From Chloroflexus sp. Y-396-1 (GTDB lineage: Bacteria > Chloroflexota > Chloroflexia > Chloroflexales > Chloroflexaceae), in assembly GCF_000516515.1 (NCBI RefSeq), contig NZ_KI911784.1, forward strand, positions 434,001 through 498,000: a DNA stretch of 64,000 nt, given 5' to 3'. This document shows positions 2-38,937 of the stretch, piece by piece. How positions within the stretch are numbered: the stretch's first letter is position 1; each line of letters begins with the position of its first letter. A program made the translations under genes and the position numbers. A model generated the notes under the pieces. The model had not been told where the DNA came from. It was given only the letters and a program-made list of their open reading frames with translations, and did no database searches.

Positions 2-3000
2 GAAGCCGACGTTGCAGCATATTTCTCAAGTGATGATGTGTCGTTACGTGAAGAAGACGGTTCAGACGAACGTTTGACCGGTACATTCCGCATTCCCAAA
101 GCAAGTCTTGACGAGAGTCTGGCACCAACTGGCGCTGTGAGTGCACTCAGTGAGAAGAAGGAAGATGTTCCCGCCGAGCCGGAACTAAAGCCCTTCTCGC
201 TTGAAGAGTTGGGCCTCTCGCCCGAAGAGATTGCCCAGCTTGAGGCTGCCCAGCAGCAGGCGCAGCCCGCCGATGCTGAGCCAGAACTGAAGCCCTTCTC
301 ACTCGAAGAGTTGGGTCTCTCGCCCGAAGAGATTGCCCAGCTTGAGGCTGCCCAGCAGCAGGCGCAGCCCGCCGATGCTGAGCCGGAGCTAAAGCCCTTC
401 TCGCTTGAAGAGTTGGGTCTCTCGCCCGAAGAGATTGCCCGGCTTGAGGCCGCCCAGCAGCAGGCGCAGCCCGCCGATGCTGAGCCAGAACTGAAGCCCT
501 TCTCGCTTGAAGAGTTGGGTCTCTCGCCCGAAGAGATTGCCCAGCTTGAGGCCGCCCAGCAGCAGGCGCAGCCCGCCGATGCTGAGCCAGAACTGAAGCC
601 CTTCTCACTCGAAGAGTTGGGTCTCTCGCCCGAAGAGATTGCCCAGCTTGAGGCTGCCCAGCAGCAGGCGCAGCCCGCCGATGCTGAGCCGGAGCTAAAG
701 CCCTTCTCGCTTGAAGAGTTGGGTCTCTCGCCCGAAGAGATTGCCCAGCTTGAGGCCGCCCAGCAGCAGGCGCAGCCCGCCGATGCTGAGCCAGAACTGA
801 AGCCCTTCTCACTCGAAGAGTTGGGTCTCTCGCCCGAAGAGATTGCCCAGCTTGAGGCTGCCCAGCAGCCAGCGCAGCCCGCCGATGCTGAGCCAGAGCT
901 GACCCCCTTCTCGCTTGAAGAGTTGGGTCTCTCGCCCGAAGAGATTGCCCAGCTTGAGGCTGCCCAGCAGCCAGCGCAGCCCGCCGATGCTGAGCCGGAG
1001 CTAAAGCCCTTCTCGCTTGAAGAGTTGGGTCTCTCGCCCGAAGAGATTGCCCAGCTTGAGGCTGCCCAGCAGCAGGCGCAGCCCGCCGATGCTGAGCCAG
1101 AGCTGACCCCCTTCTCGCTTGAAGAGTTGGGTCTCTCGCCCGAAGAGATTGCCCAGCTTGAGGCCGCCCAGCAGCAGGCGCAGCCCGCCGATGCTGAGCC
1201 AGAGCTAAAGCCCTTCTCGCTTGAAGAGCTGGGTCTCTCGCCCGAAGAGATTGCCCAGCTTGAGGCTGCCCAGCAGGCACCAGCCACTAGCGAAACAATC
1301 GCATTTACTGATGAGCCGATTGATAGCCTGCTGTCAGCAGTAAGTTCTGATGAAGGTGATATATTTGCCCACCTGGAACCTTCGGCAACGAGTGGTGAGA
1401 CATCGTTCGAGCTACCCGGCGTTGAACCCATTTCATTCGAGGAATTTGCCAGTCTTGAACCTTTCTCCTTCGATGATATTGAAGGGGGAACCACAACCAG
1501 TAGTGAGCTAGGCATCTCGCCTGAGGAAATCGAAGGCATTGAGTTAGGCAATTTTGAGACAGTTGTGCTCTCGGATAACGAAGAGCCAATGATCGACACC
1601 GGTGATCCCGATCTCAACCGACTGATTCAATTGGGATACCGGCAGGGATATGTCGATCTCACCGATATTATTGCTGTTGTGAAAGACCCCGAACGTGAGG
1701 CCGACCGGATTGAGCAGATCGGCTGGTCGCTCTATCGTGCGGGAATTCAGATTCGTGACGGTGATGAGATCATCGATATGGAGGCAGAGCTTGGCGAAGA
1801 AGAACCGGCAGGAGTATCATCCACGGTATCAGCCGACCTGACTCCATTCGATGAAGGTCCCGCCATCCCCGCCGAGCCGGAGCTGACCCCCTTCTCGCTT
1901 GAAGAGTTGGGCCTCTCGCCCGAAGAGATCGCCCAGCTTGAGGCCGCCCAGCAGCAGGCGCAGCCCGCTCCCGCCGAGCCAGAGCTGACCCCCTTCTCGC
2001 TTGAAGAGTTGGGCCTCTCGCCCGAAGAGATTGCCCAGCTTGAGGCTGCCCAGCAGCCAGCGCAGCCCGCCGATGCTGAGCCAGAGCTGACCCCCTTCTC
2101 GCTTGAAGAGTTGGGCCTCTCGCCCGAAGAGATTGCCCAGCTTGAGGCCGCCCAGCAGCCAGCGCAGCCCGCCGATGCTGAGCCAGAGCTAAAGCCCTTC
2201 TCGCTTGAAGAGCTGGGTCTCTCGCCCGAAGAGATTGCCCAGCTTGAGGCTGCCCAGCAGCAGGCGCAGCCCGCCGATGCTGAGCCAGAACTGAAGCCCT
2301 TCTCACTCGAAGAGTTGGGTCTCTCGCCCGAAGAGATTGCCCAGCTTGAGGCTGCCCAGCAGCCAGCGCAGCCCGCCGATGCTGAGCCGGAGCTAAAGCC
2401 CTTCTCGCTTGAAGAGTTGGGTCTCTCGCCCGAAGAGATTGCCCAGCTTGAGGCTGCCCAGCAGCCAGCGCAGCCCGCCGATGCTGAGCCAGAACTGAAG
2501 CCCTTCTCGCTTGAAGAGTTGGGTCTCTCGCCCGAAGAGATTGCCCAGCTTGAGGCTGCCCAGCAGCAGGCGCAGCCCGCCGATGCTGAGCCGGAGCTAA
2601 AGCCCTTCTCGCTTGAAGAGTTGGGTCTCTCGCCCGAAGAGATTGCCCAGCTTGAGGCTGCCCAGCAGCAGGCGCAGCCCGCTCCCAACGAGCCGGAGCT
2701 AAAGCCCTTCTCGCTTGAAGAGTTGGGTCTCTCACCCGAAGAGATTGCTCAACTGGAAGCGGCTCGACAAACTCAACCGCAACCAGATACTGCGGTTACA
2801 TCTGAAGATGACCTGTTCGACTTCAGCATTGCTGAAACGGCACCGGTCGCAAAGGCTGTTCGTACCACACCACGCAGAGAGGAGCCACCACAAACACCGG
2901 CGCCAGAGGATATTGGCTTCGTTCCCGAACCACTCGACGCCCTCGATGACATCTGGCAAACACCGCCGGAGCTACCGAAAGCTGAGCCAGCACGAGTTGT

Positions 3001-3499
3001 ATTGCCACCACTTGGTGAGCGAACGAAATCACAACCAACATCGCAGCCATCCGTCAGTGAAGAACGCCGGAGCGTAACGCCGACCCGCGACGACCTACGT
3101 TTCGCCCGTCGGGAAGCTGCCAGCAGTGGACGGGGTCGATCTGCACGGGCGCCACTCCGCCCACGTGCACCGGAAGATTTTATTCCGACCGGCAATACAA
3201 CCATAGACGATTACCTGCGGCAACTAAGTGCTAATCCAACAAATCATGCACTGGCATTCACAATTGCCCGTCTCTGTGCGCAAACTGGTCAGGCTGAATT
3301 GATGGCCGTTATCTATCGGCGATTACTTAAACACTCCAATCTACTGGATCAAATGGCCGAAGAACTGGAAGATCTCATTAATACGGTTGAAGAGAGATCA
3401 GTTCTGCGGCAGTTATACCGCATTCTCGGCGATGTTTATTCGCGTCAAGGGCGACTGGAAGAGGCAATAGCTACGTACAGCGCCACTTTTGCAGAATAA
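2..3499 (+). CDS. Giant acidic 34-residue-repeat protein with TPR-like C-terminus (5' partial)
   Basis: The frame is open from base 2, so the true start lies before the window; the GTG at 38 is only the first in-window start-like codon. About 1165 residues are visible. Two blocks of near-identical 34-residue repeats (core LEELGLSPEEIAQLEA plus a Gln/Pro/Ala linker) hold 11 and 9 copies. Between them is a unique stretch (about bases 1590-1790) with LIQLGYRQGYVDLTDI and an RAGIQI end that resembles sigma-70 region 1.1. After the repeats come a Pro-rich low-complexity region and a C-terminal helical segment with a TPR-like unit (YRILGDVYSRQGRLEEAIATY). No signal peptide or membrane segment is visible. 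A Roadblock/LC7 gene follows 43 bp downstream, which suggests a small-GTPase-linked role such as polarity or gliding; that is inference. The function is unknown, but the coding call is secure because substitutions between repeats keep the frame. Confidence 0.85.
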   Translation, partial: EADVAAYFSSDDVSLREEDGSDERLTGTFRIPKASLDESLAPTGAVSALSEKKEDVPAEPELKPFSLEELGLSPEEIAQLEAAQQQAQPADAEPELKPFSLEELGLSPEEIAQLEAAQQQAQPADAEPELKPFSLEELGLSPEEIARLEAAQQQAQPADAEPELKPFSLEELGLSPEEIAQLEAAQQQAQPADAEPELKPFSLEELGLSPEEIAQLEAAQQQAQPADAEPELKPFSLEELGLSPEEIAQLEAAQQQAQPADAEPELKPFSLEELGLSPEEIAQLEAAQQPAQPADAEPELTPFSLEELGLSPEEIAQLEAAQQPAQPADAEPELKPFSLEELGLSPEEIAQLEAAQQQAQPADAEPELTPFSLEELGLSPEEIAQLEAAQQQAQPADAEPELKPFSLEELGLSPEEIAQLEAAQQAPATSETIAFTDEPIDSLLSAVSSDEGDIFAHLEPSATSGETSFELPGVEPISFEEFASLEPFSFDDIEGGTTTSSELGISPEEIEGIELGNFETVVLSDNEEPMIDTGDPDLNRLIQLGYRQGYVDLTDIIAVVKDPEREADRIEQIGWSLYRAGIQIRDGDEIIDMEAELGEEEPAGVSSTVSADLTPFDEGPAIPAEPELTPFSLEELGLSPEEIAQLEAAQQQAQPAPAEPELTPFSLEELGLSPEEIAQLEAAQQPAQPADAEPELTPFSLEELGLSPEEIAQLEAAQQPAQPADAEPELKPFSLEELGLSPEEIAQLEAAQQQAQPADAEPELKPFSLEELGLSPEEIAQLEAAQQPAQPADAEPELKPFSLEELGLSPEEIAQLEAAQQPAQPADAEPELKPFSLEELGLSPEEIAQLEAAQQQAQPADAEPELKPFSLEELGLSPEEIAQLEAAQQQAQPAPNEPELKPFSLEELGLSPEEIAQLEAARQTQPQPDTAVTSEDDLFDFSIAETAPVAKAVRTTPRREEPPQTPAPEDIGFVPEPLDALDDIWQTPPELPKAEPARVVLPPLGERTKSQPTSQPSVSEERRSVTPTRDDLRFARREAASSGRGRSARAPLRPRAPEDFIPTGNTTIDDYLRQLSANPTNHALAFTIARLCAQTGQAELMAVIYRRLLKHSNLLDQMAEELEDLINTVEERSVLRQLYRILGDVYSRQGRLEEAIATYSATFAE
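173..1277 (+). repeat. Tandem 102-bp coding repeats, block 1 (11 copies)
   Basis: There are eleven in-frame copies of a 102-bp unit, the last one degenerating at its 3' end. Copies differ by a few bases, mostly synonymous (ctcgaa/cttgaa, gctgcc/gccgcc) or K/T and Q/P swaps. This near-identity points to recent expansion or gene conversion. Confidence 0.95.
1871..2788 (+). repeat. Tandem 102-bp coding repeats, block 2 (9 copies)
   Basis: There are nine further copies of the same 102-bp unit as in the first block, restarting after about 590 bp of unique coding sequence. The first three copies carry the PELTPF variant and the later ones PELKPF. The last copy diverges into ARQTQPQPD. Confidence 0.95.
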
Positions 3500-34974: not shown

Positions 34975-37900
34975 TTACTCTTGTTTTGCTGAAAAGGACG
35001 AATTGGCGTTACCCCATCCTCCTCTCCAGTTCGCACTGCACACCACCAACAGCCAGAAACTAAACGCCAGATCAGGCCAGAAGTAGAAAGCATCGACGAG
35101 GCCGTGCATCAGTGCACCAGCGAGTGTCGCCGCAGCACCGATGGTCAGTGGCGAGGGGGAGTGTACTGGCGCACGCAGAATACGCCACCCAGCCCATCCC
35201 AACCCGATGAAGAGCAGTGGCCCACCCCGTAGCAGGAGATCAAGCACCAGGTTGTGGGGATGCGCTGTGTAGACTTCGTTGGTGTTGAGGAGCGCTGGAT
35301 CGATATAACGCTGGTAGACGATCAGAAACTGATCGAGACCAATTCCAAATGGATGGTCAATGAATATTGCTAACGCCGCACGCCACGTCGCCAACCGGAT
35401 GGTGCTACTTCCGGTAAACAGACTGAGTCGTTCAATACCGAAGATGGTCGCCGTCGTGACAATCACTGCCACGACAAGGACCATCCCGATGATGAGCCGA
35501 GAACGGATACGAGGCGTCGCAGTAAAGAACAGAAGTCCACTCGCGGCTATCAATGCTCCCAGGTACGCGCCACGCGAGAAGGAGACCATCAGCGCGGCTA
35601 GCGATAACACAGCGATACCAGTAAAGATGATGGTTGGCCAACGCTGGCGCTGCTGCCAAACGCCCCACGCCAGCGCCGCAGCTAGCGGCCAGACCCGCCC
35701 CATCGCTAGACCGAGATTGTTAGGGTGTCCGTATAAGCCAGTCGCCCGTACCACACCCTCGGCGGCAACTAGATCGGCACCGTGGCTGATTTTGGTACCG
35801 ATGAGCGCCGTCAGGTCTATACCGCCAAATTGCGCCAGCGCTACCAGTGCTGAGACAGCGCCACCGGCTAACCAACCGAGCAGGACCGGGTAGAATACTG
35901 CCCGACCCTGCCGTTCGTGCCACCAGAGTAATCCGATGAAGAGCAGTGGCTCGATGATCATCCAGCGCAGTTCACGCAGGGCCGGGCCACGTACCTCGGC
36001 AATGAGTATCCCCCAGAAACCACCAAGCAGCACCAATCCGGCCGGTAGCAGCACCCATATTGTTGTCTGCAGAACCTTGAAACCCGGCCAACGCAACTGC
36101 CGCCAATCGCGTATGATAGTCGCAATTGTCGTCGTCCAGAGCACAACTTCATGCAACGGAAGGTAGATGCCACTGTCGCGAATACCAAAACGGGCATCGA
36201 AGATTCCTTTTGGGATGAAATACAATGGAACAGTGATCGCTACCCAGCGAATAGCCAGATCGGGACGCGCAATGCTCAGACCGAGAAAGGGGAGAAAGCC
36301 AAGCATCGTTATGGGAAGCTGCGCCGATGCCCGGTACGCAATCGCCAGCGTGATCCCTTGTAAAGCAAAGATGATCCATTCGCGTCGTTCGTCAGCGATC
36401 TGCTGCCAGTGGTGTAAGAGGTGATCCAGCATCTGTAGTGCGGTGCGCATCGTGAGCGCACCCACTACTGCTAAACCTGCCACAAGAATGAGTGGCCCAT
36501 AATCGCCGAGCGATCGCCATGGCAGGTCGCGAATAACGGCAAAACCGGTTGGCGGCGTTTCACCGTTCACCTCAATCGTGTGCAACGTATCGGCCAGACC
36601 GTGGATTGCCTGACCATTCATTGATGTCTCTTGACCGTCGATGACAACGTTCGTGAGCTTGCCACCGTGCAACTCAATACCGGTGCCAACAAAACGGAGC
36701 CGCCAACCGCTGCTTGTGCGCTCAACGGCCGGATGTTCCCAGGTATGGACACCAATGTGGGCTACTACTGGCGCACGCAGATATTCCTGCACGATGTGGT
36801 ACGATGGCCTGAGCTGCCAGTCACGACTGACGAGAGCGAAATAGGGCGTGGGATCAGCCGGATCAGGTTCGGCATACCCACCGTAGCGCAACATCCAGAC
36901 GTTCATGACCCCCATCCAGGGCCACTCACGACGGGCACGCTCGATCTGTGCAACCAGGTAGCGACCTTTTGTTTCTTCATCGACCGGTGGCCCCCAGACG
37001 AAGCGTCGTTCTGGCGGAATATCAGCAGTCGCCGCATTGTAGCCAAACTCTGTCACCCACACCGGTGTTGACCAATCACCGTGGCGTTCCATGACCTCGC
37101 GAAGCAGGACGACCCGACTAACATCGTTGCGGGTATCAATCGGACGTTGCCAGTTCCAGTTGTCACGACCACGTAGAAAGATGTAGCGATGCTCGGTTGG
37201 TGGCTGCCCCAAACCGTAATTCTGCGCCGCCATAATGTCGAAATATGCCGCCCCGCCCAACGTATAGATCGCATCGAGATATTCGAGTTCGGTCATCGGT
37301 GCTCGTGGATCAAGACCATCGGTTGGCGCCAGACCGGGGAAGAGAACAACTGCTTCGGGATTAGCCGACTTTACCGCTTCATAACCGACTCGGAGCAGCG
37401 CGAGAAAATCTGCCGGTTTTGGCTCTTGCCAGCCCCACTCGTTCTTGAGGTTTGGTTCATTCCAAATCTGAAAAAAACGAACCTGACCACGATAGCGTTC
37501 AACTAAGGTAGCCAGAAAACGGCCATAATCGGCTAAATCATCCGGCGGTCCGGTCGAATTGCCATCGACTGCCAGACCGGCCTGAAATTCCGGGGTCGCA
37601 CATCCTCGCTCACAGGCCCAGGCCGGAGTGCGATCAACGCGCATAATCAACTCAATGTTATGGGCTACCGCCGAAGCTACAATCCGGTCATATTTGGTCC
37701 AGCTTGATACCACCCCAATTGTCGCCTCGTTCCGGCGGTCAGTAAAATCACCGCGTCCGTGAATTTCAATATCTTCCCAGGGTACCTGCATTCGCACGTA
37801 GCTTGCACCTAATTCGCGAGCTAGCTTGAACGTGCGATCAACCACTGCGGGATCGGGTTCAAGGTGGAGGTTAAACACATTAACCCCTAATGCCGGGCCG

Positions 37901-38052
37901 TCGCTGTAGGGAAAGGGTGTAGAAATGGGGGAACGAGATGCGATGCCGCGAAAAGCGGCATTATCCAACCAGACGGCAACGCCGAGGGTGACAATCAGCA
38001 GCACCCCCAAACCGGTTTGCCAGATAAAGCGAATGGTCGTATTGCGCAACAT
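34975..38052 (-). CDS. Clan-A glycoside hydrolase fused to O-antigen ligase/Wzy-like membrane protein
   Basis: This 1025-residue fusion has an N-terminal helix (8-29) anchoring an extracytoplasmic TIM-barrel glycosidase region (about 50-430). The barrel shows the clan GH-A pattern: acid/base Glu199 in FFQIWNEPNLKN and nucleophile Glu335 in VWVTEFGYN. A small beta domain follows (430-505). From about 518 there are a dozen membrane helices; the C-terminal part carries O-antigen-ligase/Wzy_C features: TGLYGHPNNLGLAMG, SFSRGAYLGA, RLATWRAALAIF, GIGLDQFLIVYQRY and AHPHNLVLDLLLRGG. It may both trim and polymerise or attach a surface glycan. The junction lies inside one uninterrupted frame. The start at ATG 38052 fits the anchor. 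Confidence 0.85.
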   Translation of the reverse strand: MLRNTTIRFIWQTGLGVLLIVTLGVAVWLDNAAFRGIASRSPISTPFPYSDGPALGVNVFNLHLEPDPAVVDRTFKLARELGASYVRMQVPWEDIEIHGRGDFTDRRNEATIGVVSSWTKYDRIVASAVAHNIELIMRVDRTPAWACERGCATPEFQAGLAVDGNSTGPPDDLADYGRFLATLVERYRGQVRFFQIWNEPNLKNEWGWQEPKPADFLALLRVGYEAVKSANPEAVVLFPGLAPTDGLDPRAPMTELEYLDAIYTLGGAAYFDIMAAQNYGLGQPPTEHRYIFLRGRDNWNWQRPIDTRNDVSRVVLLREVMERHGDWSTPVWVTEFGYNAATADIPPERRFVWGPPVDEETKGRYLVAQIERARREWPWMGVMNVWMLRYGGYAEPDPADPTPYFALVSRDWQLRPSYHIVQEYLRAPVVAHIGVHTWEHPAVERTSSGWRLRFVGTGIELHGGKLTNVVIDGQETSMNGQAIHGLADTLHTIEVNGETPPTGFAVIRDLPWRSLGDYGPLILVAGLAVVGALTMRTALQMLDHLLHHWQQIADERREWIIFALQGITLAIAYRASAQLPITMLGFLPFLGLSIARPDLAIRWVAITVPLYFIPKGIFDARFGIRDSGIYLPLHEVVLWTTTIATIIRDWRQLRWPGFKVLQTTIWVLLPAGLVLLGGFWGILIAEVRGPALRELRWMIIEPLLFIGLLWWHERQGRAVFYPVLLGWLAGGAVSALVALAQFGGIDLTALIGTKISHGADLVAAEGVVRATGLYGHPNNLGLAMGRVWPLAAALAWGVWQQRQRWPTIIFTGIAVLSLAALMVSFSRGAYLGALIAASGLLFFTATPRIRSRLIIGMVLVVAVIVTTATIFGIERLSLFTGSSTIRLATWRAALAIFIDHPFGIGLDQFLIVYQRYIDPALLNTNEVYTAHPHNLVLDLLLRGGPLLFIGLGWAGWRILRAPVHSPSPLTIGAAATLAGALMHGLVDAFYFWPDLAFSFWLLVVCSANWRGGWGNANSSFSAKQE

Positions 38053-38340: not shown

Positions 38341-38937
38341 TCATGGTACGTGCGAAACACCGTTGCGCCGTAATTTTGCTTCGCGCCAAACCCGTACTGC
38401 ACCGCGAATGAAACGGAAGGCAACGAACCCCAGGATCAGGGCAATAATCAGTGCCAGGATCGGTAAGAAGATCGCCAGCAGGCTAAGCACAAACGATAGC
38501 GCGTCTTCCAGAAAACTCACAAAAGGATTAGCAGTACCACCGGTTGCAGCAGTCACCGCCGGGCGGATACTGGTACGTGCGCTCTGTGTGCCCGTGGCAG
38601 CAATGATTGCAGCCACCGCAACAACTGCTGGATGAATAGAAACGGCGTCAGTTGCTGTAGCAAGCGCAACAATCGCTCCGGCAATCGGGCTGATGACCAG
38701 ACCAATGATATGGAGCACGCTATCGACCGCTGGAACTTTGTCACCGATAAAATCGATCAGCGCCAGTATTGCCAGCACAACCATCGTGATTGGATGACTG
38801 AGTAGATCAAACGGCTCGCTGAGCTGTATCAGACCCAACCGCGAAAGTACGCTGACGGTAAGAAGCGGGAGATAGGCATTGAGACCGGTAGCTGTCGCTA
38901 AACCCAGCGAACTCGCAAGTGCAATGATTGTCTCCAT
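38341..38937 (-). CDS. DUF4126 membrane protein
   Basis: This 198-residue protein has about five or six hydrophobic helices. It begins METIIALASSLGLATATGLN and contains AYLPLLTVSVLSRLG and ALIDFIGDKVPAVDS, which are characteristic of DUF4126 proteins. The function is unknown. It has a normal length for the family and stands between spacers. Confidence 0.82.
   Translation of the reverse strand: METIIALASSLGLATATGLNAYLPLLTVSVLSRLGLIQLSEPFDLLSHPITMVVLAILALIDFIGDKVPAVDSVLHIIGLVISPIAGAIVALATATDAVSIHPAVVAVAAIIAATGTQSARTSIRPAVTAATGGTANPFVSFLEDALSFVLSLLAIFLPILALIIALILGFVAFRFIRGAVRVWREAKLRRNGVSHVP

Follow-up and report, generated by a model that had tools for sequence, protein, structure and literature searches.

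Two described enzymes are closest to the protein that we analyse here. PslG of Pseudomonas aeruginosa (GH39; PDB 4ZN2, 5BX9, 9G17) is a glycosidase at the membrane and a separate protein of the psl cluster. A study of 2025 describes PslG as a retaining endo-beta-glucosidase with E165 and E276 as general acid/base and nucleophile (PMC11912335), and both residues are critical for activity (PMC6813494; PMC9075953). WaaL (PDB 7TPG, CAZy GT121) is a ligase with a GT-C fold that acts on lipid A-core. O-ligases have two Arg that bind undecaprenyl diphosphate (Und-PP) and a His that activates the acceptor, and their family is present in Gram-positives too; in the polymerase families of clan GT-C1, all except GT127, Asp or Glu stands in place of this His (PMC10920833). 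Here we describe a gene of Chloroflexus sp. Y-396-1 whose product appears to join both kinds of enzyme in one chain. The gene occupies positions 34975-38052 on the reverse strand of a stretch of 64,000 nucleotides (contig NZ_KI911784.1, positions 434,001 to 498,000; hereafter the window). Our main reading, to which we assign a probability of about 0.45, is that it encodes a membrane-bound ligase for surface glycans that carries its own PslG-like endoglycosidase.

The frame begins with ATG, contains no internal stop and encodes 1025 amino acids. The full-length AlphaFold2 model (mean predicted local distance difference test score, pLDDT, 87.9; predicted template modelling score, pTM, 0.66) starts with a helix at residues 2-34, alternates between strands and helices until roughly residue 426, forms beta strands from 434 to 507 and is mainly helical at 513-1024. 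Judged from the fold matches of the model, the part up to about residue 426 is a triosephosphate isomerase (TIM) barrel. An earlier note, made from the sequence alone, had proposed an anchored clan-A glycosidase with the catalytic residues E199 and E335, a small beta domain and a Wzy_C-type module in the same chain. All of these are recovered here, with an anchor at residues 9-27, both Glu aligned to PslG, the model strands at 434-507 and Wzy_C at 813-950. The note was also right about the multi-pass, Wzy_C-type character of the membrane region; its extent is about 513-1010 and not 780-960.

Among known structures, the glycosidase part is closest to PslG. In a search with a profile of 46 relatives, PslG was the first PDB match (E 5.5e-15), followed by GH39 proteins. 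With the model as query, Foldseek and VIA-align both placed PslG first (VIA-align, 4zn2: Z 31.1, root-mean-square deviation (rmsd) 4.9 over 359 residues), and GH39 structures again came next in VIA-align. Counted by hand along the profile alignment, E199 and E335 correspond to indices 139 and 250 of the PslG chain, which has 416 residues and ends with residue 442; this implies an offset of 26, and the two indices become E165 and E276. With a barrel closest to PslG and GH39 and with both Glu in place, the protein is, as far as such comparisons can tell, a PslG-like glycosidase of clan GH-A. It shares with PslG the fold, the catalytic Glu pair, the beta domain that follows the barrel and the place at the membrane, whereas PslG lacks a fused membrane transferase and is only about 18% identical to the Chloroflexus part.

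Since the fold search with the whole model returned rows for the glycosidase part, we modelled the membrane module by itself (residues 541-1010; mean pLDDT 93.4). WaaL was the only match of this module to the PDB at E up to 1 in a search with a profile of 39 relatives (E 2.1e-13). Foldseek with the module alone matched WaaL with E 1.4e-5 and gave no other match below 0.001, and VIA-align gave Z 21.2 and rmsd 4.6 over 366 residues, with SEDS proteins next at 12.3 and lower. Structure prediction, which the earlier note had proposed as a check, thus gives both a PslG-like and a WaaL fold. The domain order, both catalytic sets and the folds of the two models are read from comparison with known proteins. 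By hand count along the profile alignment, R191, R265 and H313 of WaaL map onto R827, R886 and H933. The membrane-module tree has 115 rows, which comprise 78 modules fused to the glycosidase, 19 from split gene pairs and 18 that stand alone. R886 and H933 are invariant in 78 of 78 fused rows; at position 827, 56 of these have R, 18 have K, 2 have E, and A and V occur once each. Because the Arg, Arg, His set of WaaL maps onto these three residues, the module is likelier to be ligase-like than a polymerase, as far as sequence likeness can tell. The WaaL fold and the two Arg plus His, both features of CAZy GT121 (O-Lig), are found.

Pfam Wzy_C, which matches residues 813-950 (E 2.5e-19, above cut-off), includes both polymerases and ligases. 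An alternative that we consider unlikely, and that the earlier note had suggested, is a polymerase of the Wzy type whose built-in hydrolase controls the length of the chain. Such a role would fit PslG, which is part of a polymer-making system and which, in the view of its authors, cleaves the polymer when a certain length is reached; furthermore, the glycosidase-linked modules differ from the 16 stand-alone Wzy_C proteins that we sampled. Wzy polymerases share with the Chloroflexus protein the broad membrane fold class and the Und-PP donor, but they have Asp or Glu, in all families but one, where the Chloroflexus protein and all 78 fused rows have His (PMC10920833). Asp or Glu was not found at the place of WaaL His313, a comparison that is silent on GT127. 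In addition, the genome has five Wzz matches (four above cut-off), none of which is near the fusion gene, and the closest solved fold is WaaL, although there may be few polymerase structures to compare with. Polymerisation with chain-length control is thus less supported than ligation.

Other ligase-like enzymes help to place the protein. The O-linking oligosaccharyltransferases of the PglS/TfpM type share the Wzy_C domain, and PglS, a Wzy_C enzyme that glycosylates protein, has a His at the same place, with H324A as an inactive control (PMC12800693). They have no glycosidase, and their acceptor is a protein; since PglS-type enzymes share the His, the acceptor of the Chloroflexus protein could also be a protein. 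The match of the 1025-residue protein to NCBIfam TfpM is weak (E 0.078). WadA (GT25-GT121) resembles our protein in that a GT121-type ligase is joined to a second carbohydrate-active domain; this partner is a GT25 glycosyltransferase in WadA and a glycoside hydrolase in Chloroflexus (PMC10920833). The GT25 domain of the WadA type was not found, and besides Wzy_C, the Pfam scan gave no glycosyltransferase match at E up to 1 in the 1025-residue protein. An IctB-type transporter was rejected, as TIGR00947 scores 32.6 bits against a cut-off of 366.4.

The acceptor is unlikely to be lipid A, as searches of the host genome (one contig, 4.89 Mb) gave no match to LpxC and none to Omp85, whereas the same searches were positive in 4 and 7 of 14 control genomes, respectively. 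A literal O-antigen-to-lipid-A ligase, implied by the naming in the earlier note, was rejected on this ground, and in this respect the protein also differs from WaaL. The result agrees with the reported absence of LpxC- and Omp85-type genes in Chloroflexi (PMC5826079); cryo-tomograms of Chloroflexus aggregans show a diderm-like envelope in spite of the lack of the usual genes (PMC13319060). The genome contains four matches to LytR-CpsA-Psr (LCP-type) proteins and eight to Wzy_C, seven of them above cut-off and the fusion gene included. A second long frame of the same genome (L143, near 2771719-2772273; 1094 residues), with its Wzy_C match below cut-off, is possibly composite.

We next turn to the catalytic Glu residues of the glycosidase, which are not conserved in all relatives. 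Of 224 glycosidase frames, 173 distinct rows filled 60% or more of the alignment columns and were used for the glycosidase tree. Both Glu are kept in 49 of 82 fused rows and in 88 of 91 unfused rows, and one or both are lost in the other 33 fused rows. A few fused rows are partial because of contig ends or draft breaks (L022, L064, L106, L107, L114). Among the unfused exceptions, L074 is truncated where its contig ends and L076 nearly duplicates the fused L075 from the same metagenome-assembled genome, which leaves L197 as the one true case. In L197 (3698-4954, forward strand), the unfused neighbour glycosidase has its nucleophile Glu changed to Ala whereas the adjoining fused copy keeps both, the reverse of the usual pattern. 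Over all 36 rows with losses, the nucleophile alone is lost in 23, the acid/base alone in 5 and both in 8.

The 33 fused rows with losses, together with L074, L076 and the intact L171, form a single branch of 36 rows (support 99). After removal of nine rows (five of them fused rows with losses) and of the catalytic columns, the 28 remaining fused rows with losses make up one side of a branch with support 91. The fewest changes needed on the tree are three at site 199 and four at site 335, and two at each site in the reduced set. Many independent losses of Glu are not shown, as all rows with losses but L197 fall in one branch. When reading these counts, it should be kept in mind that related rows are not independent, that the trees are quick ones and that rows were first gathered by their likeness to the intact Chloroflexus protein. 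R886 and H933 are retained in all 32 degenerate forms in which the ligase residues are readable; at position 827, 18 of these have R, 11 have K, 2 have E and 1 has V. Since the Glu are lost while the ligase His and second Arg are kept, the glycosidase in this clade must have a role other than classical hydrolysis; perhaps it holds the chain. In the 49-row branch that includes the Chloroflexus protein, all rows, fused or split, keep both Glu, and catalysis is thus probably under selection there. The absence of an open active site, which the earlier note named as a possible objection, does not apply at residue level here, but a related clade of fusions lacks catalytic Glu.

This pattern is relevant for two further alternatives. 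First, the glycosidase could chiefly be a domain of the ligase that holds the chain or reads the acceptor, with hydrolysis minor even where both Glu are present. The degenerate fused forms, with R886 and H933 kept, speak for this, as does the near-complete retention of both Glu in unfused rows, where two of the three exceptions look like cut or broken fused genes. The full conservation in the 49-row branch speaks against it, and the losses, being confined to one clade, do not amount to many independent tests; we give this alternative a low chance. Second, retaining clan-A enzymes are capable of transglycosylation, and the glycosidase could graft or cross-link finished glycan while the ligase only loads it. 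PslG and GH39 are indeed retaining (PMC11912335), but we have no evidence for an acceptor site, and forms without the Glu pair cannot transglycosylate in the usual way. We regard this second alternative as very improbable. Compensation by a second glycosidase was also considered. Of the 20 genomes with a degenerate fused form, we examined 9 for which a second match was listed, and all nine (two of them near relatives) contain an unfused copy with both Glu. This does not prove compensation, as such unfused copies are common elsewhere too.

Returning to a ligase with a built-in endoglycosidase, we propose the following mechanism. A glycan on Und-PP would reach the outer face of the membrane, where R827 and R886 would hold the diphosphate and H933 would activate a hydroxyl of the acceptor, for which peptidoglycan, wall glycan, a glycolipid or a protein are candidates. 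We infer that the chain is transferred en bloc to this acceptor. The glycosidase would bind the same chain and trim or release it by retaining hydrolysis with E199 and E335; as membrane segments precede and follow the glycosidase, it would be kept near the ligase. In the clade with losses, binding would be its sole remaining role. The substrate, the acceptor and the coupling of the two modules are likewise part of the proposal. Remodelling of a surface glycan in one step, as suggested in the earlier note, is a plausible hypothesis.

Several observations weigh against this reading. The pTM of 0.66 for the full model leaves the mutual facing of the modules unfixed. In the search with hidden Markov models, which recovered Wzy_C above its cut-off, GH39 (PF01229) matched residues 93-240 below cut-off (E 0.0011; 18.3 bits, cut-off 26), and for this reason we name the part PslG-like and not a member of PF01229. 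The rule on the His rests on a single family survey, and the loss of Glu in the related clade shows that the fused form as such does not depend on hydrolysis. As cited in PMC6813494, one group found PslG to be required, and another found it dispensable. Furthermore, the gene seems to stand alone, as the nearest frames of the same strand are 288 and 285 bases away, and no Wzz or polysaccharide glycosyltransferase was found among six scanned neighbours in the window. A clear glycan gene set is missing in the window and also around L068 (DUF4230, TruD, MurJ and others) and L069 (transport permeases).

The fusion is common in its phylum, where the earlier note had thought it unusual. A search of the class gave a match of some kind in 156 of 158 genomes, and a search of the phylum gave a match at E 1e-20 or better in 244 of 400. 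Among the phylum-search matches listed, a hand count finds whole-model matches in a single open frame in at least about 65 genomes with at least 19 family codes; this count leaves out G068 and G175, in which the match runs across stops from one gene into another. The profile scan of loci found 116 fused frames before removal of duplicates, and the set from Chloroflexota comprises 82 distinct fused rows, a few of them partial. In other lineages the genes are split but adjacent, as in G064 (a single contig; L118, less than 25 bases apart) and G042 (L126, overlapping ends). An artefact of assembly or annotation, or homologs that are always split, was the objection raised in the earlier note. It has practically no chance of being correct, as the fusion is intact in many genomes, including the single-contig G006 and G007 of the same genus.

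In the membrane-module tree, 15 of the 18 rows that stand alone form one side of a branch (support 93). Of the others, L026 and L106, which resemble fragments of fused genes, group with the fused rows, and L143 forms a long branch by itself. For the most part, the tree thus separates the glycosidase-linked modules from stand-alone Wzy_C modules. The label 'fused' changes 10 times on this tree and 13 times on the glycosidase tree, broken draft genes included. A simple reading would be one old fusion followed by several fissions, although the unrooted trees do not prove this. A contig scan with patterns from this one protein gave 79 loci, one of which, a glycosidase-only locus (L083), is recorded as Proteobacteria. 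On plasmids, 12 records matched, all within the glycosidase part and none at 80% query coverage or more. One of these is a disaggregatase-related protein of Methanomethylovorans (NC_019972.1, 141890-142882; 23.9% identity, E 4e-22), a possible link to archaeal matrix-degrading enzymes.

Table 1. Features of the fusion gene, with positions in the window.
Feature	Position	Strand	Basis
Whole gene, PslG-like glycosidase and WaaL-type putative ligase module, 1025 amino acids	34975..38052	-	
N-terminal membrane anchor, residues 9-27	37972..38028	-	hydropathy peak; model helix 2-34
Clan-A TIM barrel, residues 55-426	36775..37890	-	best structural match PslG, Z 31.1
Small beta domain, residues 434-507	36532..36753	-	model strands; PslG alignment extends to residue 493
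GT-C membrane module, WaaL fold, residues 513-1010 (541-1010 folded alone)	35023..36516	-	
E199 (WNEPN), predicted acid/base	37456..37458	-	aligned with PslG E165
E335, predicted nucleophile	37048..37050	-	aligned with PslG E276
R827, Und-PP binding by analogy	35572..35574	-	aligned with WaaL R191
R886, Und-PP binding by analogy	35395..35397	-	aligned with WaaL R265
H933 in HPHN, acceptor activation by analogy	35254..35256	-	aligned with WaaL H313

Lastly, we looked at the genes around the fusion. The six scanned neighbours in the window, which are part of its frames, comprise a methyltransferase, a DUF4126 protein, an ABC transporter, a weakly C39-like protein, an NPCBM-associated repeat protein and a UbiA protein; on these six, a glycan gene cluster in the window was rejected. 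The DUF4126 membrane protein lies upstream of the fusion (38341-38937, reverse strand). Of 48 loci, in which some genomes are counted twice, 6 have DUF4126 close to the fusion and 5 have the ABC transporter. Farther away, a frame of 1153 residues (38-3499, forward strand) carries two arrays of a nearly perfect 34-residue repeat, with a 102-base period, 10.8 and 8.6 copies and 94% matches. The end of its product resembles tetratricopeptide repeats and may be of this type.

At other loci, the gene company supports, without proving it, a part for the fusion in the assembly of surface glycans. In both L129 and L213, the neighbours of the fusion include genes for a nucleoside diphosphate (NDP)-sugar epimerase, a further Wzy_C protein and an LPG_synthase_TM protein; the last of these also occurs in L202, and L202 and L213 include a GT4 glycosyltransferase. 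An unfused glycosidase adjoins the fusion in L178, L184, L187, L190, L196, L197, L199, L200, L202, L203, L204, L205, L212 and L213, and a stand-alone Wzy_C gene is near both in L184, L202-L205, L212 and L213. The split form in L121 is near phosphomannomutase-type and nucleotidyltransferase genes.

What would be new in this protein is a bimodular ligase like WadA that has a hydrolase as partner. Full-text searches aimed at such a hydrolase-ligase fusion, which mostly exclude subscription journals, gave no report of it. In its available text, the survey of the ligase family names one bimodular ligase, WadA, mentions 'glycoside hydrolase' only in a remark on a CAZy clan and does not use the word 'fused' (PMC10920833). 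Databases may annotate these proteins by domain. Tentatively, and with more doubt than confidence, we suggest a widespread wall-glycan ligase of Chloroflexota, bacteria that lack lipopolysaccharide (LPS), with a hydrolase fold as its chain-handling arm; in one clade, this arm would have become a pseudoglycosidase while the key ligase residues were kept. In a bolder form of this idea, the forms that lost only the nucleophile may act like engineered glycosynthases, with transfer from a lipid diphosphate donor.

It is not settled why a hydrolase is retained in exopolysaccharide systems next to the enzymes of chain synthesis (PMC6813494). The protein described here would be a natural one-chain version of this arrangement, and with its relatives that lack the Glu, evolution would have separated a binding role from a cutting role. 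Chloroflexota have a layered, poorly understood envelope and lack the known LPS genes (PMC13319060; PMC5826079). For this phylum, the fusion protein provides a candidate for an enzyme that attaches glycans to the cell surface.

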